64,000 bases of DNA from the NCBI RefSeq assembly GCF_964355755.1, contig NC_092671.1:35171304-35235303 (forward strand), read 5' to 3'. The position numbers and the translations under genes were made by a program. Under the pieces are notes generated by a model. It made no database searches and was not told the DNA's origin. It worked only from the letters and a program-made list of their open reading frames with translations. This DNA comes from Antedon mediterranea. Lineage: Eukaryota > Echinodermata > Crinoidea > Comatulida > Antedonidae. The first letter of the stretch is position 1, and each line of letters opens with the position of its first letter. This document shows, one piece after another, positions 36,318 to 64,000 of the stretch.

Positions 36318-36479
36318 CAGTAAAACCCCCTATTATAGGGGTCACCTATATGATCTTAGGACGTTTCCCCTTAATAGGGATGTCCCCTGAATAGAAGCTG
36401 GCTATGTTAAAAACATATAATTCCTCTTGTACACAAAAAGTTTCCCTTTAATAGGGGGGTCGCAAAGAAGAGGTTCTAA
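36318..36479. mobile_element. MITE with CAGTAAAACCCCC end (upstream of PON copy 1)
   Basis: The left end is CAGTAAAACCCCCTATTATA. The right end, read inverted, is close to CATTAGAACCTCTTC, with a CCCCCCTATTAAAGGG core inside. The equivalent copy upstream of PON copy 2 is at 46149-46316, so it was carried by the tandem duplication. Confidence 0.65.
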
Positions 36480-37936: not shown

Positions 37937-37975
37937 TAAATATTCATATTAGAAAATTAATATTTATATCCAGGG
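37937..37975 (+). promoter_or_regulatory. Conserved AAATATTCAT/ATGAATATTT dyad upstream of PON copy 1
   Basis: An inverted AAATATTCAT ... AATATTTATA pair followed by CCAGGGTTGT is kept upstream of all three PON start codons (here, 47209-47250 and 58903-58945), 100-190 bases before each ATG. It may be promoter or 5' UTR sequence, or only shared duplicated DNA. Confidence 0.3.
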
Positions 37976-38127
37976 TTGTTTCAGCGTTACTGAAGCGTAT
38001 CATCTTGGTTTGAAGCATGGATTAAAGAATATTCTTTAATCCATGGTTGAAGTTTGGTTGAGAAATTTTTTGCACGACGTGGCCGGCCTCCTGTGTCTTG
38101 AAAGAACTTTACTAAGAAACTGCAATT

Positions 38128-41100
38128 ATGTGGAAGAAGTTACTTTTCATTGTTTTTTTAGCCATATTTGCACGACACATCTTTTTAATAGCGTAAGAAC
38201 TCACTTTCTGTTACTCGTAAATGTTAAAACTACCTAGACTTTTAGACTAGCCTAGGCCTAGGCATCCAACTAGGGCTAGCCTAGGCCACCACTGCACTGT
38301 CTGCTTAGAGTGTATAGGCCCACCCAGCCATAACTGAACTGGTGGAAGGTAGCGCTTCTGCTCAAAGTCCATATCATCCGTCAGGCAGTATGGCCATATA
38401 TCATTCAGTCAAAGACCAATGAAAACGGATGCTTTCCGTGGTAAATCAGAATTTAAAGATTTGTCCCCCTTAAAAAAAAAAATGTTTTAATATTTTGTGG
38501 AATATGCCATTTTAATGTCACATAGTGGTTTTTTACTTTGGCCAAATATTGGATCGAAAAAAAATTATTTACCTAAATAAATAAAAAAAAAGACAAAATA
38601 GCCAAATTGGCTGCCAGCCAATGGTTTTTTGGTTGCATTTAACCGTTTAATTATTTTGTCTTTTTATAAGTGAAATAACAATTCTTTTTTTTCTACAGAA
38701 GTGAATAACTTTATTAAAACTGAAAAATGGCCTATTCAAAATCTGATTTTGTTATTTATTAATCTTTATATTTCATGTTTGTGGGGGACAATACATCTTT
38801 AATGATTTTTACCAAAATACCAAATCACATTCTTAATAAAAATCTGACTTTTGCTTTTGAAATTCTTTTTTAGACAAATCATGGGTATATTTAAAACTAT
38901 CCACAATCATAAACCAGGTCCTTGCAGAGTAGTACCAGGTATAGGTAAGTTCAATACTGCATCTCTCTTACAGGGTGTATCATAGAGACCTGGTTTAGGA
39001 ATCCTAAATGGTCCTCCAACGCTGGAGGTCTCGGGCTTTTTCGACATATTATTCTATTGGCTGTTTTTTCCTTTGGGCACCTACTCAGAGACCCCATAAG
39101 CTCTGGGGCCCCTGGGTTTAGCCAGTGAGCGCTCATAGCTACTGCTCTCTTAAAAATTCTTCAGTTAATAATACCATGGAGGTTGGCTAGTTGAATCTCC
39201 TTCTTTTTTATACCTCCATGATAATACAGAACTATCAGGATACATTGTACCTACAGGGCGTAATCTAGTTGCCATCTGGGTGATGAGAAATTTGTAAATG
39301 CGAAACTACAGTATTGCATTACAAGGCTTATAATATTCTTTTGAAAAAAATGACACGTACGATGTCTGGAAATTGCATTATTGTTAACCATACAGCAAAA
39401 CATCATTTACAATTATAAATTTTTGGTTTTTATTTTTACATTCTAGTTAATGGTTCTGAAGACATCTATGTGCTGCCAAATGGACTGGCATTCATCAGTT
39501 CGGTAATAACATTTTCTCAAATAAATCAAAATTATATTTTTAATATTATAATATAGATTAGAATGGCAAAATGATTGCATTATTACGCTTGAGGGCTATA
39601 TACTTTCATGCCAGCAATCAAAACAATATGTACGCACTCATCTAACAGTGTCCCTTTGAATGATGCAGGCACGCGCGCATATCTGGGCTGTATCATGTTA
39701 CATCCAGGGACCTTAATGCGTAGTTATTTTTCAGACGGTAGTATTAGAACTTTTACCAAGTGTACACATGCTTTTACTGTTGTGATTGTTGGAAATGTAT
39801 TGTTTACAGTAATACCCGCTGTTAAACATTGTTTAAGCATACACGCATGTTTGCTCCGTTGGTTACATTTTGAGGGCTATACACTTCACTGGCATTACAG
39901 CTAACCATCTAAACAAAGGTACTGTACACACTAAGCAAAAAGATGTGAATTATGTTGATGATCTAGTTTACGAATTTTTCAGTTTTACGAATAACCCTTA
40001 ATACCGTAGAGTACGTTAAATAGACGTTTCACTTTCAGGGGCGGACCACCCCCCTTTTGTAATATATATATATATATATTATGCACCCATTTACATACGA
40101 TTTTATCAACGATTTTACAGGAAAAGGGGGCACAAATCAACATTAAAAATCGTTAAAATCTACAAATTTTTTTTAAGTTGAACCAAGTTCAACTTCAACG
40201 TTATGATCGGTTAAACTGACTGACCAATCAAATAGTTCATAAATTACGTCATCATTGTTTGTGAAAAAATATGTACGCGCTGACAATTCTTGATTGACCG
40301 GCCTTGGCTTTGCAAAATCTCGCGTCCATGTGTCCCAGCAACGTCGAAAGAACCAAGAAACCATTAACGATCGTAAAAAATGTGTAAAAATTCGCAATGG
40401 GAAAACAGGCTTTAGGCGCAAAAACAAAAACAGTTCCGTATAGGCTATTAAATATGGTCTATAAAACCCACTATATTCAGATAATTATATGACAAGAATC
40501 GACTGGCCAAAACGCCTCAGATGCTATCTCTGTACGTCTCCCTCTCCCTCTTGATCAAAATCCTAAATCCGCCCCTGCTTTATCAATATTGTTATGGTTA
40601 TAATTGGAGTGTGTGCACTTCCACTTGACAGCTAAAATAAAATTATGAACTACTATTTGCTGTCTATTTTTGACAGACCTTTTAATATATATTGTTAGCC
40701 CTCCACCGTTAAATAATCCAACATCCGCCTCTTGTATCACAATGCAATAAATGCATAGGACTCTGCAATCACAAATTATTTCAATTTCAAGTAATAGTTT
40801 TTGTTATAGGGTATTTCACTGGACCATTATACAAAAGGGAATGATCCTAGAATACGCCAGTTTGAAGGAGGCATTTACCGATTTGATTTTAACAAACCAG
40901 ACGAAGAAGCAAAGCTTATACCAATAGAGGGCGATGTTCTTAAAAATAATGGCTTAAGACCGCATGGCCTTGATGTATGGCAAGACGGAAAAACAGGTTT
41001 TTTGATGTTTGTTTTTCAATTTCACCACAAATATTTGCTATATGACTTCTCTAAGCCTGTTGGAGGAATTTATAAGGTTCAACCGCCTATTACAATTTAT

Positions 41101-43795
41101 ATACCAGCAACCACCCTCACACGAGCAGATGTATAAAGACTAAAGAAGACTTGATAGATGTTATACATTAAAATAAAATTTCATAGAAAATATTTATTAA
41201 AAAACTATCACACCTAGAAAAATTTAGTTTACCACCATGCTAAATTAGTTCACAAACATTACCAGCGTTATATGAATACCCCGTTATATACATCCCGACT
41301 TATGCACTGTGCCCTACCACATTACTTTTACAGGGAAAACTTATTCTTGTGATATATATTCTTTGGTTTTATTCATCTTTTTCAGGGAAGGTACGTCTGT
41401 TTGTTGTGAATCATTATCCACCTGTGGATGTAATAGAAGTGTTTGATTTTGATCAAGAAAGGATGGTTTTGAAACATTATAAAACCATTCAAGACAAGCT
41501 GTTTTACAGGTAAATTGTTGGCCCATCAGGGTGGCATTAAAAAGGGGCAATTGGTATACTATTGACTGCTTTAGCCATTTTGGTGGAGACCTAAAACCAT
41601 AAAAATAGATCATCAAAAATACTTTGTTAACATTTTACCCATTTTGGCAAAAAAAATCTGGGAAAAAATTCCCATTTCCTCATGTTTTTTTTGTTAAATG
41701 CATTGTTTAATTAAAGATAAGCTGCAATTTTCGGCAACTAGTCTTTTTCCACCAGGACTGTACCTACATTTATATCTGTATGGATGGTAGACACTGTACA
41801 AAATGACTGGATGATGGAGACTAAAGAATCCTTAACTGAATTATGTAACAACAATAGCTGATGTATGTTTTTACTATTTTGAGTTAGTTATAGACCGATC
41901 CATTTGGCTAAAATAAAATTGGAATTGAGTCATTTTATTATGATGGACATAATGGACAAAAAAATCTTTTGAGCTTATCAAATTGTTTGAACGTTAGCAT
42001 GGCGAAATCAAATGTTGAAATAAAGTTTGTGGTATATTAGTTCTGAAAAGAACAGTTGAGTTTCTCAATTTTTGATCAATGCTTTGATTGTCCTCATGAT
42101 TGTCGCATAATAAACAAAATGTTGTCGAATCACATAAAAATAATATTTAATAATATCAATTTTAATATTTCATATTATATAGTGAAATGCAGCTTTACTT
42201 TGTTTTTTTTTAACAGCGTTAATGATGTAGCAGCTACCGGGCCTGATAGCTTTTATTTCACCAATGACGGGTACCACCATGGTATAAAGCGTGTATTTGA
42301 AGGCCTGTTGATGAGAGCATGGTCTAACATTGGATACTATGATGGTAAAGAAGCAAAGATCATTATGGACCGTGGCCATGAATTTAATGGAATCAACATG
42401 TCACCAGATAAAAAGTAATTTATTCAAAAATATAGTTGTCCCTACTATAATGCAAATGCAAAATTTTCCAAAATTGTTTTACTCAAAAGACGCTATGCTA
42501 TTTATTTCGCATTTTCTTTTATTATATTATAGAATAGTGTATGTGAATGAAGTTTTTGCCGGTGGGGCAATGCATATATTGCAACGAGAGTCAGATAATT
42601 CTCTGTCTTTGATTGAAGTAAGCACATTGGTCATATGACCCTGCAGTGTAACTGGACTTAATTGCACATATGTGTGAACTGCACATATGTGTTGATGACA
42701 ATATGTACTACTTTCATCTCCCCTAAGGATCTCTTTGTGTCAAGCAGCTAACAAACAATGATAATTCGTCTGTCCAAAAAAACAGCGGCTGACATAGGCC
42801 AGTACACTGTGGTAACCTCTACTACTACAAGGTGCGTTTTCCAGTGCACACAACCTACTTATTTGTTTTATGGTCAGATGTGCAGATTTTATGACCACGA
42901 TTTACCCATGCCTTAATGCTCGGCCAAACATTTTATTTCAATATCTTTTGAATTTGGTCATATGTTTTATTTAAATTTGTAATATTTTTTTTTCAGAGTA
43001 TGAAGTTTGACAGTCTTTGTGACAATGTGTTTGTTGATGACGGTGGTGACATTTGGCAAGGTTGTCAGCCAATTGGTCACATGTTTACTTCACATGCACA
43101 GAACTTGTCATTACCATCTCCGTCTGAGGTAAGTGACTTCCGACAACATTTGCAAACTCCTATCGAAAACTTATTTGGTTAGTTTAACAAGTGAAATTTG
43201 CTGGTGAATTATTTTTATATTTATTATTTATTTATACTGGGTATCTTCTCCCAGAGGCCCCCTGATAAGTGACGGTGTGCAACAGTGGCTGAGTTTACTA
43301 GTACACCGGGGTAACCCCCTACTCGTCTCGAAAAATGTACTAGGTTCTTTAAAGTGTACATGAGCTAGATGTGTACACTGGACCTACGGTTTATAGTCCT
43401 TATCCGAAAAGACTTGTTCTACCACCAGAACCATGGCTACGTAATTACGGTTCCACTGTCATAACCGCTCAGCCATTCACCCGATGTAGGTCCAATGTGA
43501 AAGTTCTAGTTGAGCACTACTATGAGTATGTATGCACTAGGCTAGGCCCTAAAAACTTGTAAAATAAACACTACGCTAGGCTTAACAACTTGTAAAATAA
43601 TTACATTTGTTAATTTTTCAGGTAATAAATGTAAAGTTTTTAGACAAGAGCAGAAAACGTTACGAGATCAGTGAAGTGCTTAGCAACGATGGAAGCCTGG
43701 TGTCAGGATCGTCGGTGGCAGCATACTATAAAGGCGCTATGTTGATAGGCACAGTTTTAGACAAAATGGCGTATTGCAAAATTGTGGCATTTTAA
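38128..43795 (+). CDS. PON: Paraoxonase-like lactonase/arylesterase, PON copy 1 (complete, 9 exons)
   Basis: Exons are 38128-38192, 38874-38944, 39447-39502, 40810-40996, 41386-41509, 42217-42414, 42533-42617, 42997-43128 and 43622-43795 (TAA). They sum to 1092 bases, or 363 residues, with all phases closing; nine exons also match vertebrate PON genes. The start ATG opens MWKKLLFIVFLAIFARHIFL, a hydrophobic anchor like the retained N-terminus of PON1. PON1-equivalent residues are present: Ca2+ ligands Glu50/Asp51 (PON1 53/54), Asn170/Asp171 (168/169), Asn225 (224), Asp271/Asn272 (269/270); catalytic His116 and His136 (115/134), Asp185 (183); and the disulfide pair Cys39 and Cys358. Family enzymes hydrolyse lactones and aryl esters, often bound to membranes or lipoprotein. 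One oddity is Gln286 where PON1 and copy 2 have His in the GCHP motif. The natural substrate is unknown. Confidence 0.95.
38453..38804. mobile_element. Palindromic MITE, GATGTATTGTCCCC family, PON copy 1 intron 1
   Basis: Starts TTTAAAGATTTGTCCCCC and ends GTGGGGGACAATACATCTTTAA about 70 bases before exon 2. Members occupy the same place in copies 2 (48581) and 3 (59346), so insertion preceded the gene duplications. Confidence 0.8.
40036..40577. mobile_element. hAT-like MITE, specific to PON copy 1 intron 3
   Basis: Ends CAGGGGCGGA and TCCGCCCCTG are inverted. CTTT lies just outside both ends. Copy 3 lacks the element and reads through at the matching site (TTTCACTGTATCAATATTG near 61130), an empty-site comparison. 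The open minus frame inside (40173-40427) has no recognised domain. Confidence 0.7.
40997..41136 (+). other. Open in-frame extension after PON copy 1 exon 4
   Basis: Read without splicing, the frame continues 46 codons past the exon 4 donor (to TAA at 41134-41136) with FVFQFHHKYLLYDF and ITIYIP. Copies 2 (52335-52492) and 3 (62062-62180) are also open in the same frame. It could be a retained-intron or alternative terminal exon, or recent-duplication conservation. Confidence 0.45.
43235..43500 (-). mobile_element. tRNA-derived SINE, partial, in PON copy 1 intron 8
   Basis: On the minus strand it carries the tRNA-like A-box region GGCTGAGCGGTTATGACAGT, then CCATGGTTCTGGTGGTAGAAC and a tail with ACTCGTCTCGA complement and GGGGTTACCCC. 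A fuller plus-strand copy is at 52803 and a co-located copy at 56975 in PON copy 2. Confidence 0.75.
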
Positions 43796-44105
43796 TCTTA
43801 TCTTAACAAAAACACTTAGGCTTTCACAATACTACAGTACTATAGAATGGTTTTTCCTCACATTTAATCATATTTAAATTGTCAACAAATAATAATGTAC
43901 TTAAAACAGATGCTTAAATGTCTTTACATTAAAAATTATTTGTACTGATATTAATTCTAAAAGACTTAAAAGTCTGTTAGCAGGATTACTCAAAAGTAAT
44001 TACAAGATCTTTACCAAAATGAATGTACAGATAGATATGTGGTCAAGGACCATTCCATTAAATTTTGGGACCATTTCGTACCACGGTCCCAATTCTGGAC
44101 CACTT

Positions 44106-44600
44106 TTTAGTATACTTTTTCAGACCTGCTAGTGTTAAAAGATAGGACAGAATTTTTCAAAAGCCGGCAAGCAGTCTTACAGTAACAAGTAAACTGAAAT
44201 TGCATTTTCTCGAAAACTACTTGTCCAAAAAACTTCATTTTTGTACAAGAGGCAAGAGTTATAATTTGTGATTTGTAATTTTGAAACATAATTTGATTTA
44301 ATTTGCACCTTTTTTGATGCGAGTAGTTTTAAAAACCTTTTTCTTTTCAAATTCACTCGTTTGATTTTCGCGTTTCTGTTCTATTGTTAGTCAACTGAAG
44401 CTATTGTTAATTGAAAGGATTGTTACATTACCATTACAACAAACTTGCATACACATGCTTGTAGTGAAATTAGCCTAAATCACAAACAGCATTAAGACAC
44501 GCACACATATTATATATATAATTTTTTTTTACCGGAGAAATCTTATGTAGGAGAATTTTACAGTAGGCGGAGGTATCCAATCTCGGAGTGGCTTTCTAGT
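44106..44600. repeat. 5'-truncated copy of the CCTCCGCC-ended dispersed repeat
   Basis: Matches 7555-8028 from CAGACCTGCTAGTGTTAAAA to GGAGTGGCTTTCTAGTT, with small indels, and lacks the left end. Confidence 0.8.
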
Positions 44601-45302
44601 TGTAAATGTAAAACATAGTGTAAATTTTCTTTATTCAAATGATTATTGCAAAATTTGCTACTGTTAAACTGTTGTCTAGTAGCATATAAATTTATCTTAA
44701 ATTTACATATTCAATGATATTTAAATTTGTAGACAAATTTACATATTCAACTTATAGTAGGTACAGTATTTCATGATGGTAATTTTGCTTTACCGCTGAT
44801 GAAAATAAGTGGGGTTATTGTTGTTGAAAAGGTTCATTATTATAAACATTAAAAAGTTATGCCCAGAGCTACCCTTTACCGCCAATAATGTTTTCTTTTC
44901 GTTAACAAAACCTTATATTACATAGCCTATGTAAATACGTGAACGTGATTGGTTGAAACTACATCACAAGACTACCGCTGCGAGGATCGTAAATCGTATA
45001 TATCCTCGAGTACGATGATATTGACTGACGAATTATTATTTATTCGACCTATACCTGATAATATTATTAACATTATTAATGTAGGCTTATTGATGAAAAA
45101 TCTTCTGTTATTATTTAAACGACCTAGGCTAGTGATTATTTTATTGCCAAGGAATCTTTAATTAATAATTATCTGTATATTATTCTTCGCATTAGTAAGG
45201 TGTTTAGGCAGCTTGTTTACATACTAAACAAAAAGGAGGCCTAGCCTAGCTACCCGACTCAGCATATATTCTACTTGTTGTTGGCTATGTAATATATCGG
45301 TA

Positions 45303-45431
45303 AAATATAAGATTTGACAACCCCTTGGGAATGATCTTTTGTTCGAGGGAATATATTTCCCTTCGCGCTTTGGGAAATATATTCCATCGAACAAAATATC
45401 ATTCCCTCTGGGATTTCAAATCTTATATTTA
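45303..45431. repeat. Imperfect 60-bp-arm palindrome
   Basis: The left arm runs from AAATATAAGATTTGACAA to GGGAATATATTTCCC. The right arm runs from GGGAAATATATTCC to ATTTCAAATCTTATATTT. The central loop is about 10 bases (TTCGCGCTTT). It would form a long hairpin. Confidence 0.8.
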
Positions 45432-46148
45432 ACCTCTAAGCAGTCAATATCTGTATAATAGTTACTAGTCGTTTTCACTCTATATGATAACATTTTATGG
45501 CTGGAGCTACCCTTTAACGTCCACGTTTTAGTTTCCTTTAATAATACAGTACTTTAGTTAATAATCGTTTCCACTCTATATGATGGTATTGAAGGTATAT
45601 GGACTTAAATATAAATATGATTTAATTTTGAAAAATTAAAAGGTGAAGGACATTGTCAGGTTATATTATAATTTGTTTTCTACTCTGATCTGATAATGTT
45701 TTCATTAACAATTATTAAAAGTTGGAATAGGCGATACATTTATTATTCTGAAATACAGGAGACATGCCCTTTGGTGATAGTTGTCTTTGACAGATCTGGT
45801 CTCTCTTCAGTGCTCCTCTTTTATGTTTCCGCACTGAAATGAATAAATAAAATAGGTAGCATAAGTAACCTAGTTAGCAACAACTGCATTCATAGTTTTA
45901 ATTTGAAAAAAAATTCTCTTAGTAATGTGTAAAGAAATTTGTTTCCTAATTAAAATACGTATATTAAAAATTTTTTTTATAAATGGTAAATATTGTTCAT
46001 TTTGGGGGTGTGTTTTATTTATATATTTTGTTTTTAATATGTATGTTGTATTTAATTTTACTACACAGCATTTACTGACCTCTCATAACTCACAACTTTG
46101 ATTAACATTTAAATATTCAGCATTTTTTAAGAACATCCATAACAAACA

Positions 46149-46316
46149 CAGTAAAACCCCCTATTATAGGGGTCACCTATATGATCTTAGGACGTTTCCC
46201 CTTAATAGGGATGTCCCCTGAATAGAAGCTGGCCGCATATGTTAAAAACATATTATTCCTCTTGTACACAAAAAGTTTCCCTTTAATAGGGGGGTCGCAA
46301 AGAAGGGGTTCTAGTG
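46149..46316. mobile_element. MITE with CAGTAAAACCCCC end (upstream of PON copy 2)
   Basis: Nearly identical to 36318-36479, in the same relative position before the gene. The right end is CAAAGAAGGGGTTCTAGTG. Confidence 0.65.
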
Positions 46317-47345: not shown

Positions 47346-50300
47346 ATGTGGAAGAAGTTACTTTTCATTGGTTTTTTGGCCATATTTGCGCGACACATCT
47401 TCTTAATAGCGTAAGAAAACACATTCTGGTACTTTAGTAAACGTTAAAACTACCTAGACTTTAGACTAGGCATATATACTACTAGGCCATCACTATCTGG
47501 TTAGATTGTAAAGGCCCACCCAGCCATAGGCCTAGTAACTGAATTGGTGGAAGGTAGCGCTTCCGCTCAATCGAAGTCCATATCCGTCAGTGTGACCATA
47601 TCATTCAGTCAAAGACATAACAGATGCTTAGCGTGGTAAATTAGAATTTGTAAACTTTATGCCAAGAGAGCTTGGAAAAAAAGATCAAAAATTAAACATG
47701 TTCAATCTTTATATTAGATTAAGATCTGTATACTATTACTGAACATCAGTTAATTTAAGTTTTAAATTGTTATTTTGTTGTAGACTTTAGTTAATGTTTA
47801 TGCATTTTTGTTTTCACGCTGCTGCTCTAGCCCACTACGTCACACGAGATGACTCATTCATTAGATGAAATCAAGCAGCAGTATAGTACTACACTTTGAC
47901 ATTTTTGTTAAAATGGAAACTCGACTATAATTTATAGGTACCAAATCCAAAAAACGGCTGGGAAAAGAGTCTAATGACAAATCCCAAAGCATTTCTGGTA
48001 TTTATGAGTCCCATGATATTACTATAATTCACTGTCAGATAATCATTGAATTATTATCAAAACAGTCCATTGAAGTTTTTTTTTTTTTTAACCATATTTA
48101 ATGCTAATGCTGATCATTAGGGACCCTCAGAGGTTCACAAGACAAATAAATACACAAGATGCTCTACATAAACAAAGTCTTATTACAAGTCTTAGGGAGT
48201 GGAGTTGTAATTTGGTCCTGAAAATCCTGACATGTGACGGGACTTGAACCCAGGACCCTTGGAATGGTAGCCAAGCATCATAACCACCAAGCCACAACTC
48301 CACTCCTCCTCCACTTTTTGTTTGTAATAGGATACTTGAAGTATCTAGGCGTGATGAAGTGACCCCCAGACTTGACCTTAGCAATAACAATAAGCGAGCA
48401 GCGTTTTTTGTAAGAAATATTCTTGTTTACATAGTTGTTTAGTTAAGTTTGTGAATTTGTAATTTCTACTTACGAACGCACCAATTGTCATTGATTGAGT
48501 GCCACCGATTTAAAGGTGTAAGTTCAAATAAATATACTATACTATGACTTTTAAGTTTTACCAACTACCAAATCGCATCTTAAAGATATATTGTCCCCCT
48601 GAAATTTTTTTTTTTTAATACCTTGTTTTGAATACGCCATTTTTATCCACTTTGGCCAAAAACTGGATCGAAAAAAAAATGTATTTACCCAGCCAAAGTT
48701 TTTTGGGGTTTTTTTTGGATTCTTTTGTCTTTTTATAAGTTAAATAATTATTTTGTGAATTTTTTTTTACAGAAGTGAATTTATTAAAACTGAAAAATGG
48801 CCTATTCAAAATCTGATTTTATTAATCTTTATTTTGCATGTTTGTGGGGACAATACATCTTTAATGATTTTTACCAAATACCAAATCATATCTTAATAAA
48901 AATTTGACTTTTGCTTTTGAAATTCTTTTTTAGACAAATCATGGGTATATTTAAAACTATCCACAATCATAAACCAGGTCCATGCAGAGTAGTACCTGGT
49001 ATAGGTAAGTTCAATACTGCATCTCTCTTACAGGGTGTATCATAAGCCCCGTCGAGGCTTTGACACCTTGCGCGGTAAAGTGTATCACTTTGGCGCCAAT
49101 TCAATTAACAATAATAATGTCGAACTGGAGGGATAATGAGATAAGAGAGCTGCTTAAAATAAGGGGACAAGAAGAAATTTGTAGCATAATCTATAGGCCT
49201 AGGCCATAGCTCTTTGTTGGTGCCTGACCCTTCGTCATCTTGTAAATTGTACAGTTTTACAGATTGCCGATGAGGGCTAATTATTTGCTGTACCTGTATA
49301 ATATATGCACAATATACTGTACATAGCATGTATTGCATAAATATGCTATAAAGGAAGATAATAATCTGTAACTTAAAATTCGCCGCCATATATCGCTAGA
49401 CAAAAATAATAACAATAAAGGACGCCCTCAATAATTATTTTGTCACGAGACTTTTTATTGGCCAAATATGCCCGACTCCTTTCTCACAGAAAGCCGGTAT
49501 ATACCGTTTATATTTCGGGCACGATAGTCCGATGAGAATGGGTATATGCCGGTAACGATACCGGCACGACGCCAGCATAATACCGGTATATTGCAGGCAC
49601 ATCTGTGAGAAAGGGGCTATAGAGACCTGATTTAGGAACCCTAAGTGGCCCTCTCCAACGCTGGAGGTCTTGGACTTTCTCGAAATATTTTACTGTCTGT
49701 TTTTTATCCTCTGGGCACTGCTCAGGGACCCCCATAAGCTTTGGGGCCCCCATAAGCTCCAGGGCCCCTGTGTTTAGCCAGTGAGTGCTCATAGCCGTTA
49801 CGCTACTGCTCGCTTATAAATTGTTCTGTTAGAATCAGTGGCGTATCCAGTAGGGGGGCCGAGGGGGCCCGGGCCCCCCCTGATTTCGTTTCCGTCGGCA
49901 CATCATCGCGGCCGTCGGCAAACAAAGGTGCCGGGGAAAAAAATAAACTATTTATTCTGACAATAATTGAACTGTAAACATAATTTTTTTGAGTGTTTGT
50001 TTATTTACATATCATATCATCATTGATCCCTTCAGATCAACTATTTTTTATTTTCATTACATCTAACGAAACACGTTAAAAATGTGTAGCACGTACGTAC
50101 GGCCGTACGCGGTAGATTGTTTACTCAAAAGTCTTTGACCTTACCCTAAAACCTTGTTTTTGCATGCAGTTGAGCCTCTCATGACCTGAGATTTGTATGT
50201 CTTTCCTACGCTAAGAGATTATATAGTTCCACATGCCATGTGCTTTTTTGTCTAAGATATATTTATTATAAGTGCCAAAAACCCGTTTTTTTTTCTCGAT

Positions 50301-53300
50301 ATGAGGCCTTTATTATTCAAAATTTTTAAAGAAAAAGCACATATACCATAAAAAATATCCATGTATTTCATTTTTGGAACAGAATATTCCGTGAGGCTCA
50401 ACTACAAAATCACCATTTTGTGATATGATGTCATCGTAAGCCAATCAAAGCTGAGCTTTCTCGCGATTGGCATTGCTCACGGTTGAATGATTTAGGATTC
50501 TAGCTGATTTGATTGGTGGATGCGAATCACCCGCAGCGGAATGTTTTCTCTCGCGCGTGTACCATGAATCTCTCTGATCGTTACTACACAAAGTTAGAGC
50601 AATGAATTTGTCCGAATTCCGTTAAGTAAACAACTTTATATATTTTATAAGCATTTAATAACATGTTTTATTGATATTTCCAATGGTGATATATAAAATA
50701 AATTACTAAAAAACGTAATTATATGTAATTATTTTAACCAAAAATGGCGTAGTTAATAGAATTGTCGACTGAGGCCGCAAATTTTTTTACTTCTTTCGTG
50801 GCTAAAAACGATCATTTTTGGCGATGTTTTAGACCCTATATTTCGAAAACTACAAGTCAGATTTTCCTAATTCTTTCTTCATTGTAATATGAATACAACA
50901 TACTAACAGATAATGTTGGTTTGGTTTTAATTTTGCATCGTTATCCCATATAAGACAAAGACAATATGACTATGTAATCCTAGAACATATATTGATCAGA
51001 GACGTCGTGTATGTACAGATAATGACACCAATTTTGTCGGCAAATTGGCAATTCCCGGCCCCCCCAACTTCAAAATCCTGGATACGCCACTGGTTAGAAT
51101 ACAAAGCTATCAGGATACAGTGTACCTACGGTACAGGTTGTAATCTAGTAGCCATCTGGGTGATGAGAAATTGTAAATGCGGAACTACAGTATTGCATTA
51201 TAAGGCTTATAATATTCTTTTGAAAAAAAATGACACGTACGATGTCTGGAAATTGCATTATTGTTATTACATACAGCAAAACATAATTGAGGTTTTGCAT
51301 GGAAAGCCTAGGTGGGTCTAGGCCTAAACCAGCACATCATATTGCATTTTTTGGGGTGTGGCTGTAATATTATGTACTATTGCATTTGAATTCAATAGAC
51401 CCAATTTACAATTATTTTTGGTTTTTATTTTTACATTTTAGTTAATGGTTCCGAGGACATCTATGTGCTGCCAAATGGACTGGCGTTCATCAGTTCGGTA
51501 ATAACATTTTCTCAAATCAATACAAATTATATGTTTAATAGAATGGTTTAATATTATAATATAGATTAGAATCCCAAAATCATTGCATTATTAAGCTCTG
51601 TCTACACTAACAAACAAACAAAATGTGACACGATGATGTCATATTATCACTACCATATTATTTAGGAACATCACACTTTATTTGTCAAACTAGTTTGATA
51701 ATGTACCGTACTGGATCATTTTGCATTATCAACATTTTTACAGTAATGATTAGAGTGTGCGCGCTTTCCGTTTTGACATCTAATTTAAAATTATGAATTA
51801 CTATTTGCTGTCTATTTTATGCCAGACTATTATTATTAATTGTTAGCCCTCCACCATTTAAAAAATCTAAGAATTGGCTCTAGTATCGCAATGCATAATT
51901 AGGCCAATTTACATAGAAAATCGGTAACGGTAAGCGGAAAACCGCGTACTGTAGCTTGTCCCACATAGAATCTGTATCTATCCTGAGCGGAAACCGCCCA
52001 TCCGCTCCGCACTTTGTGTAAAACATCAAAAAGAATAACATAGATTCTATATTTTCATTACCGTTACCGCTTGGCTGGGTAATTTGGCCTTTAGACTGTA
52101 ATCACAAATTGTCACAATTTCAGTATAGTTTTTGTCTATAATTATAGGGTATTTCAATGGAACATTATACAGAAGGGAATGATCCTAGAATACGCCAGTT
52201 TGAAGGAGGCATTTACCGATTTGATTTTAACAAACCAGACGAAGAAGCAAAGCTTATACCGATAGAGGGCGATGTTCTTAAAAATAATGGCTTAAGACCG
52301 CATGGCCTTGATGTATGGCAAGACGGAAAAACAGGTTTTTTTATGTTTGTTTTTCAATTTCACGGCAAGTATTTGCTATATGACTTCTTCAAGCCCATTG
52401 GAGGAATTTATAAGGTTCAATTTCACATTAAAAATAGAATTATGATAATATATTTTGCAATTATATCAAATTTCATAGAAAATATTAATTAACAAACTTA
52501 CTTACTTTAGTTTACCGACATGTTATTAATAAGCATGTCAGATTTGAATCAATATTTATTTTTTCTACCAGAAACAATTAATAAACATACCTCCTTGACG
52601 GAGGTAAATAATAAGAAAATATTAATAAACTATCTTTAGTGAAAACACGGCGGTGCCTGGTAGTTGACCGTTTATTCGGCAATTTTTTACTAAATTAATT
52701 GTATAATAATAATAATAATAATAAACAATATTTATATAGCGCCTAATGGATCACTGACCCCTCTAGGTGCTTTACATTAGACCTTAACTAATGGTAATAG
52801 TTAAGTTAAGTGGCCGAGCGGTTAAGACAGTGGAACCGTAATCACGTAGCCATAACATCGGCAGGGGTTCGAGGCTCACTCACTCCATGGTTCTGGTGGT
52901 AGAACGAGTCTTCTCGGATAAGGACTATAAACCGTAGGTCCAGTGTACACAACTTGCTCGTATGCACTTTAAAGAACCTAGTACATCTTTCGAGACGAGT
53001 AGGGGGTTACCCCGGTGTATTAGTATATCACAGCCACTGATCACCAACTGGGCCCTCTGGGAGACCAGTCTTTGACTGAAGAGGTTACCCAGTATAAATA
53101 TATATTTCAATCAATCAATCAATCCCCCGCCGGACACCATTCCGGTATTTCTTAGAAAAAATAAAACGAACAATTAAATATCCACATAGAATTTAACATG
53201 ATGTTGGCATGTAGTTGATAATATTTTTTATTCTGAAAACACTACTAGTGATCCAGGCTTAGATTAGTGTGACCATCATAAAAAGTTATATACATCGCGG

Positions 53301-56300
53301 CGCGCCCTACCGCATTACTTTTACAGGGAAAACTGTGGAATACTCATTTTTGTGATATATATTCTTTGGTTTTATTCATCTTTTCAGAGAAGGTACGTCT
53401 GTTTGTTGTGAATCACTATGCACCTGTGGACGTAATAGAAGTCTTTGATTTCGATCAAGAAAGGATAGTTTTGAAGCATCATAAAACCATCAAAGACAAA
53501 CTGTTTTACAGGTAAATTGTTGGCCCATGATGGTGGCAGGGATGTAGCCATAAAGTGGTCCGGTTTTTTGCAAGAAAAGGGAAAAATCGCTATTCAAGCC
53601 ACTGGGTTGTCAAAGGCCTCTATGGAAAAGTGGTCAGGTTGAAGCCTTACAAACCATAGTGGCTACAGCCCTGGTTGGCATTCAGAAAAGAGCAATTGTG
53701 ACACTATTGACTGGATTCACTAACCAATCAATTCAAGTCGCCATGGACTAGAACGTTTTTAGAATTCAAACAACTGCTGTAGGTGTAGACCTTAAACCAG
53801 AATTAGATCATCAAAAATACTTTGTTAAAGTTTTACCCATTAATTGCCAACACTTAGGGAAAATGGCCATTTGCTCATGGTTAATGCATTATATTTTTTG
53901 GTAGTGTATTGCATTGTTTAATTAAAGATAAGCTCTATTTTCCAACTAGTCTCTTCCAACCAGAACTGCATTTGTTATTTCTGTATGGATAGTAGACACT
54001 GTACAGAGGGAAGCCTCTGGATGACAGGATGATGAAGACTAACCAAGCCCTAACTGAATTAAAACAATAGTTGATTTATGTTACCATTTGATTTGAAATG
54101 ATTTGAGTTTTGCTATAGACCAAAGACCAATCCATTTGGAAAAATTAGAATGTACTCAATTGTCGAAAAAAATGTTGGACTTTAGGCCAAATAAAAAAAA
54201 ATACTTGTTAAGCGTCACACCCTCATAAATTTTCAGGGGCGGGGGGACGGTTTTTTTTTTTTTTCCTTTTTATGGAGGTATATTTTTGCGCGATGGACGT
54301 TTTGGCCCACTTTTTTTTAGGACGAAACGTCAAACTTTTAAAATGCGAAACAGAACAAAATTGACTATGTATGAAAATTGAGTTTTGTATTGTTTTATCC
54401 AGACGTAATTAAAACATTAAATTTAATTGCCACCGAGCGAAATTGTAGGCCCTAGGCTAATCTGTCCAAGCTGCCACCCCCGCCTCACTCATCGGCCATG
54501 GTCCGCCGTCTCTCGCTCGACTCATCTATCCAGGAAATTCCCTATCGCGAGAAGCATGATGTTGGTCTCAATAATACTAAATAGTGGGCTGATTTTGAAA
54601 ACAGCTTACGGCATTTCTTAAGTGAATTTTTATTCAACGTATTCATTCTTCTTTGATGAATCCTTTGCCAATTGCTGTGTAAATCCGTATTTAAAGTTGT
54701 AATGCGAAAAGTGTGTGTAATTATTCCACAGGTAAACCAGGCATAAGAAAACCCATCGCCCAACAGGACCTCGTGGTGTGCCGATCTCGAGCGCGAGAAC
54801 ATCGTAAAAAAAATTGGTAGAGTCCATTATGTATGGGGTGTTTCCTATTTACGAACCTATAAAAAACGCGCTTCGACCACTGTGTAGGCAAAATATTTAT
54901 TTCGTTAAATCCCTAAATTGATAATCGTGTATTCTGTAATCACGTGACTGATGATGTAATCCTCAGCGACGTACTAAATGCACGTGATTTAATGTGTTGG
55001 GGGAAAAAGCTTGCTGTTTACCACATTACATGATTCGCGGTGCTATTCGCGTTTCCTTGACGTAAATCGGCGGCGTGTAAATGAAACAATTGTTTTCACC
55101 AAATTGCCGTTGTCAACATAGAGCGATCGGTGGCTAGCTAGCGTGGCTAAGCTAAGAAGTACGTATTTTTCAAAAATTACACCAGCCTAGCAAACATTTG
55201 CTAGTTTTGAAATTTTCAACTAGCAATTATGAAGAATCTACTAGCAAAATGCTAGTTTGCTAGCGTGAATTCTGAGCCCTGCTCTGGAGCTGGGCCGGGC
55301 CGCTGAACTTTCCGTTGTATATGGGTTAAAAAAAATAAAAAATAAAAAGAGAGGCGGCTGGATAATCAGGAGCGGGCGCTGACGCTTAACAAGTATGTTT
55401 TTTTATTTGGCCTTATTGTAAAAAAAAAATTAAATGTTATCTAATGACATATGTAGTAATATTTATGAACAAAAATTTTAAGACTTGATATTATCATGAT
55501 ATTATGTAGTGAAAAATGGTTTTCTGTCTTTTTTAACAGTGTTAACGATGTAGCAGCTACTGGGCCCGATAGCTTTTACTTCACCAATGACGGGTACCAC
55601 CATGGTATAAAGCGTGTATTTGAAGGCCTGTTGATGAGAGCATGGTCTAACATTGGATACTATGATGGTAAAGAAGCAAAGATTATTATGGACGGTGGCC
55701 ATGGATTTAATGGAATCAACATGTCACCAGATAAAAAGTAATTTACTCAAAAATATAGTTGTCCCTACTATAACGCACTGTTTTCGCAATTGTACCCAAA
55801 AGATACTATGCTATTTATTTCGCATTTTCTTTTATTATATTATAGAATAGTGTATGTGAATGAAGTTTTGGCCGGTGGGGCAATGCATATATGGCAACGA
55901 GAATCGGATAATTCGCTGTCGTTGATTGAAGTAAGCACATTGGTCACATGACTTTGCAGTGTAACTTGAGTGAACTGCACATATGTGTGGCTGCACATAT
56001 GTGTTGAAGACAAACTAGAGTTACTCTACTACTTTCATCTCCCCTAAGGGTCTCTTCGTGCCAAGCAGTTAATAAATAACGATAATTTGTCTGTCCACAT
56101 GGGCTGCCAGAGCCAGTACACCGTGGTAACCCCTACTACTACAAGATGCATTTTCCAGTGCACACAACCTACAGTACTTAGACTTGTTTATGGTTAAAGA
56201 GAGCCGTGAACCACGGTTTACCCATGTCTTAATGCTCGGCCAAACATTTTATTTCAATCTGTTTTGTTGATCAAAGTTGTTTAGGTTTACCATAGTGCTT

Positions 56301-57542
56301 ACAGTATTTTACAATATCTTGAGGGCCTAGCATTGTTCTTATTTTACATAAGTACAAAATTTGATAAATAATTGTATATAAGTACACAACTTAATTGTAT
56401 ATAAGTTCACAACTTATTTGTATATAAGTACACAACTTAATGGTACATAAGTACACAACTTAATTGTATATAAGTACACAACTTAATTGTATATAAGTAC
56501 ACAACTTAATGGTACATAAGTACACAACTTGATTGTATATAAGTACACAACTTGATTGTATATAAGTACACAACTTATTTGTATATAAGTACACAACTTA
56601 ATGGTACATAAGTACACAACTTAATTGTATATAAGTACACAACTTAATTGTATATAAGTACACAACTTAATGGTACATAAGTACACAACTTAATGGTACA
56701 TAAGTACACAACTTAATTGTATATAAGTACACAACTTTATTGTAAATTTTTTTTTTTTCCAGAGTATGAAGTTTGACAGTCTTTGTGACAATGTGTTTGT
56801 TGATGAGGCTGGTGATATCTGGCAAGGTTGTCATCCAATTGGTCACATGTTTCAGTCACATGCACAGAACTTGTCATTACCATCTCCGTCTCAGGTAAGT
56901 GACTTCCGACAACATTTGCAAATTCCTATTGGTTAGTATAACAAGTAAAATTTGCTGGAGTTGTTTTTATATTTATTATTATAAGAGTAGCCTCTTCAGT
57001 CAAAGACTGTTCTCCCAGAGGCCCCAGTTATGATAAGTGACTGTGTGCGACAGTGACCGAGTCACTGGGGTAACCCTCTACTCGTCTCGAAAGATGTACT
57101 AGGTTCTTTAAAAATGTGTACACTTGACCTATGGTTTATAGTCCTTATCCGAGAAGATTTTTTCTACCACCAGAACCATGGCTACGTAATTACGGTCCCA
57201 CTGTCTTAACCGCTCAGCCATTTACTCGATGTAGGTTCAATGCGAAAGTTCGGGTTGCGCACTACTATGACTACTTATGCACTACGCTAGGCCCTAACAA
57301 CTTGTAAAATAAACAATATGCTAGGCTTAACAACCTTTAAAATAATTATATTTTAATTCATTTTTCAGGTAATAAATGTAAAGTTTTTAGACAAGAGCAG
57401 AAAACGTTACGAGATCAGTGAAGTGCTTAGCAACGATGGAAGCCTAGTTTCAGGATCGTCGGTGGCAGCATACTATAAAGGCACTATGCTGATAGGCACA
57501 GTTTTAGACAAAATGGCGTATTGCAAAATTGTGGCATTTTAA
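47346..57542 (+). CDS. PON: Paraoxonase-like lactonase/arylesterase, PON copy 2 (complete, 9 exons)
   Basis: Exons are 47346-47410, 48934-49004, 51442-51497, 52148-52334, 53388-53511, 55540-55737, 55846-55930, 56763-56894 and 57369-57542. Each has the same length and phase as in copy 1, again 363 residues. All the PON1-equivalent metal and catalytic residues listed for copy 1 are kept. Differences include SMEHYTEG for SLDHYTKG in exon 4, a Glu at the exon 4/5 junction (acceptor followed by AGAAGG, not GGAAGG), HYAPVD for HYPPVD, MDGGHGFN for MDRGHEFN, and GCHP for GCQP. The gene is longer than copy 1 because of private insertions: a hAT-like element in intron 2, a small MITE and a SINE in introns 3 and 4, a Harbinger-like element in intron 5, and a 23-bp minisatellite in intron 7. 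It looks functional, with no stop or frameshift. Confidence 0.95.
48120..48395 (-). mobile_element. tRNA-derived SINE in PON copy 2 intron 1
   Basis: On the minus strand, TGGCTTGGTGGTTATGATGC resembles a tRNA A box. GGTTCAAGTCCCG about 45 bases later fits a B box. The element is flanked by GGAGTGGAGTTGT/ACAACTCCACTCC words. No such sequence is seen in copies 1 or 3. Lack of a proper acceptor stem argues against a working tRNA. Confidence 0.75.
48581..48865. mobile_element. Palindromic MITE, GATGTATTGTCCCC family, PON copy 2 intron 1
   Basis: Begins CTTAAAGATATATTGTCCCC and ends GGGGACAATACATCTTTAA, about 70 bases before exon 2, as in copy 1. Confidence 0.8.
49836..51092. mobile_element. hAT-superfamily non-autonomous transposon with 8-bp target duplication
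   Basis: The ends are perfect 15-base inverted repeats, CAGTGGCGTATCCAG and CTGGATACGCCACTG. They are flanked by the exact 8-base direct repeat GTTAGAAT (49828-49835 and 51093-51100), the target size of hAT elements. Just inside both ends are G-rich or C-rich runs. No transposase frame is present in 1257 bases. Copies 1 and 3 lack it, so it inserted after the duplications. Confidence 0.9.
51593..51714. mobile_element. Small MITE, TAGACAGAGCTTT family, PON copy 2 intron 3
   Basis: Starts AAGCTCTGTCTACACTAAC and ends with CAAACTAGTTTGATAATGTA. The same insertion is in copy 3 (60219); copy 1 lacks it, where the DNA is rearranged. Confidence 0.75.
51903..52091. mobile_element. Small MITE with GGCCAATTTAC ends, PON copy 2 intron 3
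   Basis: Left end TAGGCCAATTTAC and right end GTAATTTGGCCTTTA are inverted, with inner GGTAACGGTAAGCGG mirrored by ACCGTTACCGCTTGG. Absent from copies 1 and 3. It ends about 55 bases before exon 4. Confidence 0.7.
52803..53128 (+). mobile_element. Full-length tRNA-derived SINE in PON copy 2 intron 4
   Basis: The head reads AAGTGGCCGAGCGGTTAAGAC, very like the A box of a Leu or Ser tRNA, with GGTTCGAGGCTC as B box about 50 bases on. The body has CATGGTTCTGGTGGTAGAAC and GGGGTTACCCCGGTG. The tail is a CAAT repeat. An AAT microsatellite and a TTTATATAGCGCC repeat precede it. Minus-strand relatives are at 43235 and 56975. Confidence 0.85.
54185..55412. mobile_element. PIF/Harbinger-like non-autonomous DNA transposon in PON copy 2 intron 5
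   Basis: Inverted ends of about 34 bases start GGCCAAATAAAAAAA and reach TTGTTAAGCGTCA with about one mismatch. TTA flanks both sides (54182-54184 and 55413-55415), the 3-base target typical of Harbinger. No transposase frame: the longest open frames are under 90 codons and unrelated. Absent from copies 1 and 3. Confidence 0.82.
56335..56742. repeat. 23-bp minisatellite in PON copy 2 intron 7
   Basis: The unit TTGTATATAAGTACACAACTTAA, with a TGGTACATAAG variant, repeats about 17 times (for example TTG at 56464 and 56487). Copy 1 has no such array in the matching intron. It ends about 20 bases before exon 8's acceptor tract. Confidence 0.93.
56975..57270 (-). mobile_element. tRNA-derived SINE, PON copy 2 intron 8 (shared with copy 1)
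   Basis: Same orientation and place as 43235-43500, with GGCTGAGCGGTTAAGACAGT on the minus strand. Its presence in both copies means it predates their separation. Confidence 0.75.
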
Positions 57543-59043
57543 TCTTATCTTAACAAAAACACTTAGGCTTTCACAATACTACAGTACTATAGAATGGTTT
57601 TTCCTCACATTTAATCATATTTAAATTGTCAACAAATAATAATGTACTTAAAACAGATGCTTAAAGGTCTTTAAATTAAAAATTATTTGTACTGATTTAA
57701 GTCTTTTAGAATTAAGTATGTGTTTTTCTGACATTAAACGTCTTAAATGTTAAAGGACAACTTGACAGAGGACCATGTTTTAACAATGTATTATGGATGT
57801 AGATATGATTTCAGAACGATCGCAAGATTAAGGATATCGCTGCACGCGATTGCCGTACAGCCGTCGCCGTAAATTGCTGTGACGTCACATGAGTTTTCTG
57901 GCAAAGTCTTGCAAATCGACACAATTTCTAGTAAACACACTTTGTAAATAAATCGTGACAAATATAAATGTTGATTTTTTTATTGTTTCTTTTGCTTATC
58001 TGGACTCAGTAAGTAGATTTTGCGATGCACCTGTGACCTGTTCTTTAAAATAACTTTGTGTTATATTTTAGTCGTTATTTAAAATATTTTTTTGAGACAT
58101 CAATGTAATCTTATGTTTTACTATTGGTCATACATTTATCATAAAGTATTTTTTTTAATACAAATTGTGTGTGATTGGAATTAATTGAATTTGTGATGCC
58201 AATATTTGGCTGTCGTTTATGACATATGTCCATAAAAAGCATGTGTCATTTGTTTGGGTAGTTAGTACATGAAACAAATATATGAATTGTATAGTTTAAA
58301 TAAATAGATTATTGATGAGGGAAAACATATAAAAGATAATTATGTTTTGGAGGCTGTGTGTTGTAGTCGGGTAGCGAGACGTCGAGGAATAACAATTTCA
58401 CGTCTGGGTAGTATTATTTTATCTCTTGCCAGTATGTCGAAGTCGGACAAAATGTAAAATAAGCAATTAACCACCATATTATATGTTATACCAGGTTAAG
58501 GCAGAAATCGTGAATGTAGCATTTTTTCAGCTGTAGATATTGTGCATAATGCAATTAATTATGACATGCATATAAACCTTCCAAGATATAACTGAACGTA
58601 GCCCTCTATATTTTTTCAAATAATCGCCCCGCCATGTTTCATATATACACAATATATTGTATTACAACACATTTCTATTTGTAGTAGAATTCATTGATTG
58701 ACGTGATATGCAATCCATTTTGATTTTTACTGTTTTATCACTTCTTAATCTTGATATCGATATTGTGTTGTAATTTTATTTTTTTATATCTATGGGGTAT
58801 TTTATTTGATAATACATGTTTATCCCTTAAATAAACCTCTCACGAACAATACGAATAAATTTAGGTCTAAAAATCCATTGGACAGTTAAACACCCTAAAT
58901 CTAAATATTCATATTAAATAAATGAATATTTATAGATCCAGGGTTGTCTCAGCGTTACTGAAGCGTATCATCTTGGTTGAAGTTGCTTGAGAAGTTTGTT
59001 GCACGACGTGTGTCTTGAGAGAGAACTTTACTAAGAAACTGCA
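57543..59043. other. Spacer between PON copies 2 and 3
   Basis: The 3' flank matches copy 1's until about 57720. A short copy-specific stretch follows. From about 58045 the sequence matches the upstream DNA of copy 1 (36520 onward) up to the start codon. No other gene seen. Confidence 0.6.
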
Positions 59044-62000
59044 ATGTGGAAGAAGTTACTTTTCATTGTTTTTTTAGCCATATTTGCGCGACACATCTTC
59101 TTAATAGCGTAAGAAAACACTTTATGTTACTTTAGTAAATGTTAAAACTACCTAAACTTAGACTAGGCCTATTTATACTACTAGGCCACACCACTGTCTG
59201 GTTAACGTGTAAATAAAGGCCCACCTAGCCTAGTAACTGAACTACTGGTGGAAGGTAGCTCAAAGTCCATATCCATCAGTGTGGCCATATATCATTCAGT
59301 CAAAGACCAATGAAAACAGATGCTTTACGTTGTAAATCCGAATTTAAGGATTTTTATTTTAATATAAATTTTCCTGCTGAAAAAATGTTTGTTGGACATA
59401 CCATTTTAATTTCACATTTTAATGATCCAAAAACTGGATCGAAAAAAAATTATTTACCTGAACAAATTTAAAGACAAAATAGTCAAATTGGCTGCCAGCC
59501 AATGGGCAATGGTTTTTTAGTTGGATTTAACCGTTTCTTTTGTCTTTTTATAAGTGAAATAATTATTTTTGTTGATTTTTTTTTCTACAGAAGTGAATAA
59601 CTTTATTAAAACTGAAAAATGGCTTATTCAAAATCTGATTTTATTAATCTTTATTTTTCATGTTTTGGGGGTGTTGGGGGACAAAACATCTTTGTGACCA
59701 AATCACATCTTAATAAAAATCTGAGTTTTGCTTTTGAAATTCTTTTTAGACAAATCTTGGGTGTATTTAAAACTATCCACAACCATAAACCTGGTCCTTG
59801 CAGAGTAGTACCTGGTATAGGTAAGTTCAATACTGCATCTTTCTTACAGGGTGTATCATAGAGACCTCATGGTTTAGGAACCGTAAGTGGCCCTCCAATG
59901 CTGAAGGTCTTGAGCTTTTCGGCATATTTTATTGTCTGTTTAGGTTTTGCATGGAAAGTCTAGGTGGGTCTAGCCCTAAACCAGCAGATTTGGGGGTGTG
60001 GCTGTTGACTGTTGTGTTAATATACTGTTGCATTTGACTTCAATTTACAATTATATTTGGGTTTTATTTTAACATTCCAGCTAATGGTTCTGAAGACATC
60101 TTTGTGCTGCCAAATGGACTGGCGTTCATCAGTTCGGTAATAACATTTTTCTCAAATCAATCAAAATTATATTTGTAATATTATAATATAGATTAGAATG
60201 CCAAAATGACTGCATTATTAAGCTCTGCTCACACTAACAAACTATGTGCAAAAAAATGTGATGTGCCCATATATGGACAAGATGATATTATACTACTACC
60301 ATATTTGGCACACAACACTATTTTGTCAACTAGTTTGATAATGTACTGTAGAAAGAGTTTTATATTGCATGACCTCCGGATCATTTTGCATTACTGTAAA
60401 AAGTGTATTTTACGAACGTTCAGTTTATGAATCATCGATTTTACGAATGGGTTGTGGAATCAGTGACATCATTAACAAACAAATCAAATGTTTAAATATT
60501 TGATTTCTGACTGAGTTCAAATTGTTCCGTATCGGCGTACGGCCTAGAAAGAAAATAATCGGTTATGTTAACTACAGTAAATACGCTATATACCTCATAG
60601 CCAGACATATAAATACAGTACTGTAGGAACTACGGCATTTTTGACATACGCTTGAGGGCAATAGGTACGCACTCATCTAACGGTGTCCCTTTGAACGATT
60701 GTACAATGCGGGTACGCGCGCATATCTGGGCTGTATCATGTTACATCCAGGGACCTAAATGCGTAGTTATTTTTCAGACGGTAGTATAAGAATTGGAATT
60801 AGAACTTTTACCAAGTGCACACATGCTTCTACTGTTGTGATTGTTGGAAATTTATTGTTTACAGTAATATTTGCTGTTAAACATTGTTTAAGCATACACG
60901 ATCTATACGATTAAAATAATTCACGTTTACTCCGTTGGTTCCATTTTGACCAAGACGTACGTCAGAGGGCTAATACACTTCACTGAATGCATTACAGCCA
61001 GCGATCTGAACAAAGGTACTGTTACCTGTACACACTAAGCAAAAAGATGTGAATATGTTGATGATCTAGTTTACGAATTTTTCAGTTTAAGAATAACCAT
61101 TGATACCGTACGGTACGTTAAATAGACGTTTCACTGTATCAATATTGTTATGGATATGATTGGAGTGTGTTCGCTTCCACTTGACAGCTAAAATAAGATT
61201 ATGAACTTTACTATTTGCTGTCAAATTGTGACAGACGTCCTTTTAATATTAATTGTTAGCCCTCCACCGTTTAAATAATCAAAGATCTGCATCTGGCATC
61301 GCAATGCAATAAATGCATAGGACTGTAATCACAAATTATTTAAAGATGTATTGTCCCTTGAAACACAAAAAATGAAGGTCAAAATATTCTAAATTTAAAT
61401 TGGCCATATCAAAGAAATATTAAAGTTATTCACTTTAAGTCGAAAATTTGAGCCAAAAACAACAAGTTGACGTAATTAACAGGTAAATTAATTTGATTAC
61501 ATTTTGTCTAGAAAATCGTCGCGAGCAAAAGTAAACAAAGATTTCAAACCACGAGTATGCATTATGCATGATGCTAATTAGGATTTTTTACAACTTGTCA
61601 CGGTTGAGAAGGTGTTTTCACACAGATCGCGAGGAAGTTTTATGATTATGCATACATAGTAGCCAAACAAGCGCGTTACATTATGAAATATGTTTTGATC
61701 GAAAACTTTGACTAATTTTTGGTGAAAAGATGATACTTCAAAATGACCCACTTTTTTCTAAATATTCATTTTTTTATTTTTTTGGAATTATAGTTAAAGG
61801 ACAATACATCTTTAAATTTCAAGTAATAGTTTTTGTCTATAATTTCTGTCTATAATTTTTTTCTACAATTATAGGGTATTTCACTGGACCATTATACAGA
61901 ATGGCATGATCCTAGAATACACCAGTTTGAAGGAGGCATTTACCGATTTGATTTTAACAAACCAGATGAAGAAGCAAAGCTTATACCGATAGAGGGCGAT

Positions 62001-64000
62001 GTTCTTAAAAATAATGGCTTAAGACCGCATGGCCTTGATGTATGGCAAGATGGAAAAACAGGTTTGTTTCTGTTTGTTTTTCAATTTCACCACAAATATT
62101 TTCTATATGACTTCTTCAAGCCTGTTGGACTGCCTATTACAATTTATAGACCAACTCCCCTCACACGAGTAGATGTATAAGGACTAAAGAAGACTTGATT
62201 GATATTTTACATTAAATAAAATTTCATAGCAAATATTTAATAACAAACAATTACATCACACATAGAAAAAATTAGTTTACCTCCAAATTAGTTCACAAAG
62301 AAAGTTTAAAACAACAAAAATTAACCAAGCGTTACCAGCGTTTTATACATCCCGACTTTGTCCTACCAAATTACTGTTACAGTGAAAGCGTGCAATACTA
62401 CTCATTCTTGTGATATATATTCTTTGGTTTTATTCATCCTTTCAGGGAAGGTACGTCTGTTCGTTGTGAATCACTATGCACCTGTGGACGTAATAGAAGT
62501 GTTTGATTTCAATCAAGAAAAAATGGTTTTGAAACATCATAAAACCATCAAAGACAAACTGTTTTACAGGTAAATTGTTGGCCCATCAGGGTGGCATTAA
62601 AAAAGGACAATTGATATACTATTGACTGGTTCACTTTAACTGATCAATTGAAGTTGCCGTGGACCATGGTTTTTTTTTTATTATTATTAAAACAACTACT
62701 TTAGCCATTTTGGTGAAGTATTAAAATTAGAACTTTGTTAAAATTTTACCCATTTTGGAAAAAAATCAGGGAAAAAATGTCCATTTGGTCATGTTTTTTT
62801 GTTAAATGCATTGTTTATTGCATTGTTTATGCTCCAATCTAGTCTCTTTTCACCAGAACAGTATCTACATTTATTTCTCTGTATGGAACAATATTTATTA
62901 TTTTATATAGCCGAATGCTAGATCACAAAGAACAATGTTATAGCAGTTCAAAAAGTGATTCTCCATGGAGAGGGAACCAACAAGATGGCGGCTGCAAACG
63001 ACCAATCATATATGCCCTACGCTGTACGCACTGCTACGCCTGTGTTGAGCCTATCTGCGTGAGAACGATGCGCAACGCAGCGTGTTAAGCGTATAAACAC
63101 GAACGCATTCTATATGATCCTCATATACAAAAAATGCTAGATTACCAAGATATTATTCATTCCATTGCGATTAACACTATAATTAATTTTATAAAAACTT
63201 CACTGTGCTTTGACAAGAATATGTGTTGAATTTTATGTGTTCTTAATGTATTATATTAGATTATTATTTTTATATTAAATAATGTTTTTGAACACACTTA
63301 CGGCCGCCATCTTGTTGGTTCCCCCTCCTGATTGAATCACTTTTCAGTCTGGAGTACACCCTCTAGCCTTCGGCTTTACCTCACTGGTATGGAAGGTAGA
63401 TAGTGTACAAAATGACTGGATGATGAAGACTAAAGAAGCCTTAACTGAATTATGTGATTTATGATTTCACTATTTTGAGTTAGGTTATAGACCGATCCAT
63501 TTGGTTAAAACAAAATTGGAATTGAGTCATTTTATTATGATGGACATAATGGACTAAAAAATGACTTTATCAAATTGTTTGAAGGGTTGCATGGCGAAAT
63601 CAAATGTTGATATAAAGTTTGCCGTACAAATAGTATAATAATAGTATAATAGTTCTAAAAAGAACTGTTGAGTTTCTCAATTTCGATCAATATGCTTTGA
63701 TTGTCCTCAGGTTTGTCGCATAATAAACAAAATGTTATCGAATGACATAGTAATATTTAATAACATCAATTTTAATATTTCATATTATATAGTGAAATGC
63801 AGCTTTTCTGTGTTTTTTTTTTAACAGCGTTAACGATGTAGCAGCCACCGGGCCCAATAGCTTTTATTTCACCAATGACGGGTATCACCATGGTATAAAG
63901 CGTGTATTTGAAGGCCTGTTGATGAGAGCCTGGTCTAACATTGGATACTATGATGGTAAAGAAGCAAAGATTATTATGGACGGTGGCAATAGATTTAATG
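59044..64000 (+). CDS. PON: Paraoxonase-like lactonase/arylesterase, PON copy 3 (3' end beyond window)
   Basis: Exons are 59044-59108, 59750-59820, 60081-60136, 61875-62061, 62446-62569 and the start of exon 6 from 63828 to the window edge. Lengths and phases equal those of copies 1 and 2. The N-terminal hydrophobic anchor, Glu/Asp of GSED, the His of RPHGLD, the His of VVNHYAP, and the Asn-Asp pairs of VND and FTND are kept. Private changes are QILGVFK, ANGSEDIFVLP, YTEWHDPRIHQF and MDGGNRFN, the last next to the predicted Ca2+ ligand Asn225. No disabling mutation is seen in the visible two thirds. The remaining three exons must lie beyond 64000, so intactness is unproven. Confidence 0.93.
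59346..59696. mobile_element. Decayed palindromic MITE, PON copy 3 intron 1
   Basis: Same position as the members in copies 1 and 2. The left end is degraded, while the right end reads GGGGGACAAAACATCTTTG. Confidence 0.7.
60219..60350. mobile_element. Small MITE, TAGACAGAGCTTT family, PON copy 3 intron 3
   Basis: AAGCTCTGCTCACACTAAC on the left and CAACTAGTTTGATAATGTAC on the right, in the same place as 51593 in copy 2. Confidence 0.7.
61340..61815. mobile_element. Palindromic MITE, GATGTATTGTCCC ends, PON copy 3 intron 3
   Basis: Starts TTTAAAGATGTATTGTCCC and ends GGACAATACATCTTTAAA. The interior differs from the other members and is longer (about 475 bases). It is private to copy 3. Confidence 0.75.
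62951..63347. mobile_element. MITE with AAGATGGCGGC-containing inverted ends, PON copy 3 intron 5
   Basis: The left end AAAAGTGATTC, then GGAACCAACAAGATGGCGGC, is mirrored on the right by GCCGCCATCTTGTTGGTTCC and GAATCACTTTT. Between them is AT-rich DNA without a frame. Copies 1 and 2 lack it. Confidence 0.82.

Follow-up and report, generated by a model that had tools for sequence, protein, structure and literature searches.

A tandem array of four paraoxonase-family genes in the crinoid Antedon mediterranea: three similar copies and an older relative

Results

Layout of the array

The window, a 64,000-nucleotide stretch of the Antedon mediterranea genome, contains two complete paraoxonase (PON) family genes and most of the exons of a third, and a fourth lies in the adjoining contig sequence. 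Coordinates count from the first letter of the window and continue past its end where necessary.

32219-33141, plus strand: cytosolic 5'-nucleotidase III-type gene, two exons (UMPH-1 domain); upstream neighbour, outside the array
About 36071-45828, plus strand: duplicated unit with copy A, homologous to the units of B (from 45911) and C (from 58039)
38128-43795, plus strand: PON copy A, nine coding exons, open frame, 363 aa
Copy A exons, plus strand: 38128-38192, 38874-38944, 39447-39502, 40810-40996, 41386-41509, 42217-42414, 42533-42617, 42997-43128, 43622-43795 (including the stop)
47346-57542, plus strand: PON copy B, nine coding exons, open frame, 363 aa
Copy B exons, plus strand: 47346-47410, 48934-49004, 51442-51497, 52148-52334, 53388-53511, 55540-55737, 55846-55930, 56763-56894, 57369-57542
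59044-65016, plus strand: PON copy C, nine coding exons, 362 aa, running past the window end at 64000
Copy C exons 1-6, plus strand: 59044-59108, 59750-59820, 60081-60136, 61875-62061, 62446-62569, 63828-64025 (the window ends inside exon 6)
Copy C exons 7-9, plus strand, beyond the window: 64137-64218, 64583-64714, 64843-65016
66132-71435 in extended coordinates (contig C2 35237435-35242738): PON copy D, wholly past the window, 359 aa

The four genes lie head to tail in the order A-B-C-D, with start-to-start distances of 9218 bases from A to B and 11698 bases from B to C, as the initial annotation had given them (9.2 and 11.7 kb), and with a gap of 1.1 kb between C and D. That annotation counted three copies, which holds within the window but understates the array, since extension of the contig past 64000 reveals D. 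Each gene has nine exons in open frames, and all splice sites, which were inferred from homology, are AG/GT. The exons of A and B could be placed exactly and have the same lengths in both (65, 71, 56, 187, 124, 198, 85, 132 and 174 bases). The identity of exon lengths first reported for all three copies extends to the first six exons of C and breaks at its exon 7, which measures 82 bases rather than 85, a 3-base deletion that accounts for the 362-residue protein. Copy D follows the same plan with exons of 65, 71, 56, 184, 121, 201, 82, 132 and 168 bases. The array region contains no runs of N.

Over about 340 residues, nearly its full length, the copy A protein matches PON1 with a phmmer E-value of 1.6e-60, and copy D does so over about 340 residues with an E-value of 2.8e-60. 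The Pfam Arylesterase model (PF01731) scores 58.4 bits on A and 59.2 bits on B against a cut-off of 21.3, and in a profile scan of the genome exons of C and D also exceed that cut-off. Given the strength of the PON1 match of A and Arylesterase scores so far above the cut-off, chance likeness is excluded. Sequence comparison thus identifies A-D as tandem genes of the PON family; together with the exon placement, these matches confirm the earlier description of three head-to-tail, lactonase-type PON genes on a nine-exon plan.

Outside the array, a genome-wide search found a single further PON, the fifth, which stands alone on the opposite strand of contig C6. Three of its four measured exons (56, 145, 124 and 198 bases) equal exons 3, 5 and 6 of A in length, which argues that the exon plan is old in this genome. 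In the neighbouring contig sequence and the genome search, no PON copies or relics were found beyond D or upstream of A, a missing match not being proof of absence.

Several other features surround the array. A 21-base tandem repeat of about 41 copies, open in several frames, occupies 31212-32091, just 5' of the 5'-nucleotidase exons. An 18-base tandem repeat, TCTCATTCCATTCCTTCC, is present in about 163 copies at 10865-13704 with extreme strand skew, and the long open frames within it (up to 970 codons) are probably spurious. At 15671-16573 a proline- and serine-rich open frame of 301 residues gives no Pfam match, and on the minus strand at 22256-22471 an open frame carries a weak Antistasin domain (22.8 bits, cut-off 21.2), a domain of protease-inhibitor type. 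Downstream of the array, the minus strand of contig C2:35245001-35255000 carries calcium-binding EGF exons and weak VWC matches, which presumably resemble a NELL-type secreted protein. Elsewhere in the genome, at C3:31.92-31.98 Mb and C7:0.67-1.55 Mb, clustered long open frames of 430-800 codons match the SGL propeller model and possibly represent an expanded NHL/TRIM-type family.

Divergence and origin of the copies

The A and B proteins are 94.8% identical, and C is 92-93% identical to each of them. By Nei-Gojobori counts, pairwise Ks among A, B and C is 0.133-0.146 and pairwise Ka/Ks is 0.17-0.27, so the dN/dS comparison proposed in the initial annotation yields purifying selection. Within the units, the alignable part of the non-coding DNA is 90-91% identical among A-C, and many copy-specific insertions interrupt it. 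Intron lengths vary widely; intron 2, for example, spans 502 bases in A, 2437 in B and 260 in C. The D protein is 58% identical to those of A-C, and its synonymous sites are saturated.

Similar units set head to tail are the classic form of false duplication, in which an assembler places alleles or haplotigs in tandem. Alleles should differ less than the Ks values and the roughly 10% non-coding divergence found here and should have most insertions in common; moreover, the intron lengths vary greatly, the three copies are roughly equidistant from one another and the region is free of assembly gaps. We consider such an artefact very improbable for A-C, and the tandem-collapsed alleles that had been named as the observation that would overturn the array are made unlikely by the divergence and the copy-specific insertions. 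Taken together, Ks, Ka/Ks and the non-coding divergence argue that A-C are diverged paralogues under purifying selection and are not very recent. The expansion, originally called recent, is so in a relative sense: by these sequence measures A-C are fairly young, yet well separated, and D is much older.

Sites common to two of the three copies are distributed nearly evenly (32 for AB, 26 for BC and 25 for AC), which argues that A, B and C arose close together in time. Strong homogenisation of the exons by gene conversion was considered and rejected, because Ks is not lower than the non-coding divergence of about 0.10. Along the coding sequence the shared sites show mild clumping, with 48 runs where 55.9 would be expected (p=0.04), and small, limited conversion tracts among A-C are possible.

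Unit homology starts near 36071, upstream of gene A, and hence promoter-proximal DNA was duplicated too. Among the matches scored, the DNA at the unit boundaries is confined to the array, save for a dispersed repeat roughly 90 bases long. The presence of the much older copy D argues that the array began before the duplications that gave A-C. D would have been the first branch to separate from the ancestor of A-C, after which an ancestral unit of ~8-12 kb, comprising the gene and its flanks, would have undergone two duplications at a fairly short interval, presumably through unequal crossing-over, to give A, B and C. We regard as highly probable this account as a whole: a tandem PON array in which D split first and two unit duplications then produced A-C, the products being predicted calcium-dependent lactonases/arylesterases.

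Active-site and pocket residues

Residue positions were mapped onto the PON1 sequence of entry 1V04. The calcium ligands E53, D54, N168, D169, N224, D269 and N270, the H115/H134 dyad and the disulfide cysteines C42/C353 of PON1 are all identical in A-D, and W281 and C284 are kept as well; the roles of most of these residues have been described (PMC7766523). The active sites are accordingly intact, as was claimed at the outset, with three exceptions: the H184 position carries G or A and the H243 position G or N in A-D, and H285 is replaced by Q in copy A only, B-D keeping H as in PON1. These residues are linked to activities of PON1, and their alteration counts against the account favoured above. 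At the F222 position, which affects paraoxonase activity in PON1 and which we take to be a known specificity position, A, B, C and D carry E, G, R and M, respectively. Between PON1 positions 71 and 75, within the flexible lid loop, the alignment also shows additional residues. In sequence, then, the copies combine an invariant catalytic core with a few variable pocket and lid positions.

Like PON1, which retains its signal peptide, the copies have a hydrophobic N-terminus, and the array proteins may retain theirs too and be anchored or secreted through it. Each product would be a hydrolase folded as a six-bladed beta-propeller, carrying two calcium ions and a dyad of the H115/H134 type.

Discussion

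The products of A-D are likely to act as calcium-dependent lactonases/arylesterases and, if they resemble PON1 in activity, would open lactones and aryl esters; degradation of quorum signals by the array enzymes is possible, and environmental lactones may be targets as well. The initial annotation had suggested dosage or substrate diversification as the outcome of the expansion. That the copies were kept chiefly for dosage, with substrate unchanged, is in keeping with the high identity, purifying selection and invariant catalytic core of A-C and with the flanking DNA that was duplicated along with each gene. The different residues that the copies carry at presumed pocket positions speak against it, and we hold this reading as a tentative one, with a less than even chance of being right.

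Adaptive substrate diversification, in which the pockets of the copies diverged under positive selection, is unlikely in our estimation and is not demonstrated by these data. It draws on the variation at the F222-equivalent residue and the Q of copy A at position 285, and a similar pattern has been reported for the brushtail possum PON (PMC9937041). Four short segments, the lid loop and presumed pocket-side loops at about 66-82, 219-224, 241-251 and 285-297, hold 16 of the 35 amino-acid differences and none of the 44 synonymous-only codons, but these segments were chosen after inspection of the data. At the 12 PON substrate residues listed in PMC3105050, where 2 differences fall, enrichment of A-C differences is not significant (p=0.28). 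Clumping is no stronger for amino-acid changes than for synonymous ones (p=0.043 and 0.045), and overall Ka/Ks among A-C is far under 1. A scheme in which the young trio split substrates through pocket and lid changes around an untouched core, with bacterial lactone signals as possible targets, we consider doubtful.

Like A-D, the mammalian PON1/PON3/PON2 cluster consists of tandem, nine-exon, arylesterase-domain genes, and the calcium ligands, the histidine dyad and the cysteines of the disulfide are common to both arrays. The crinoid array differs from it in an apparently independent expansion, in the 92-95% identity of A-C to one another, and in the added lid-loop residues and changed H184, H243 and F222 positions of A-D. 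Lineage-specific tandem duplication of PON genes has been described in sea stars, crinoids, tardigrades, scallop and brushtail possum (PMC9937041), and those cases, likened here by description, also set older beside younger copies. The array fits this metazoan pattern and is ordinary for the family, and in most respects it is one further case of it. To our knowledge, the native substrates of PON enzymes are still not known. Lineage-specific PON expansions offer natural experiments in the search for them, and three copies that share a core and vary at a specificity position would lend themselves well to comparison of the enzymes.
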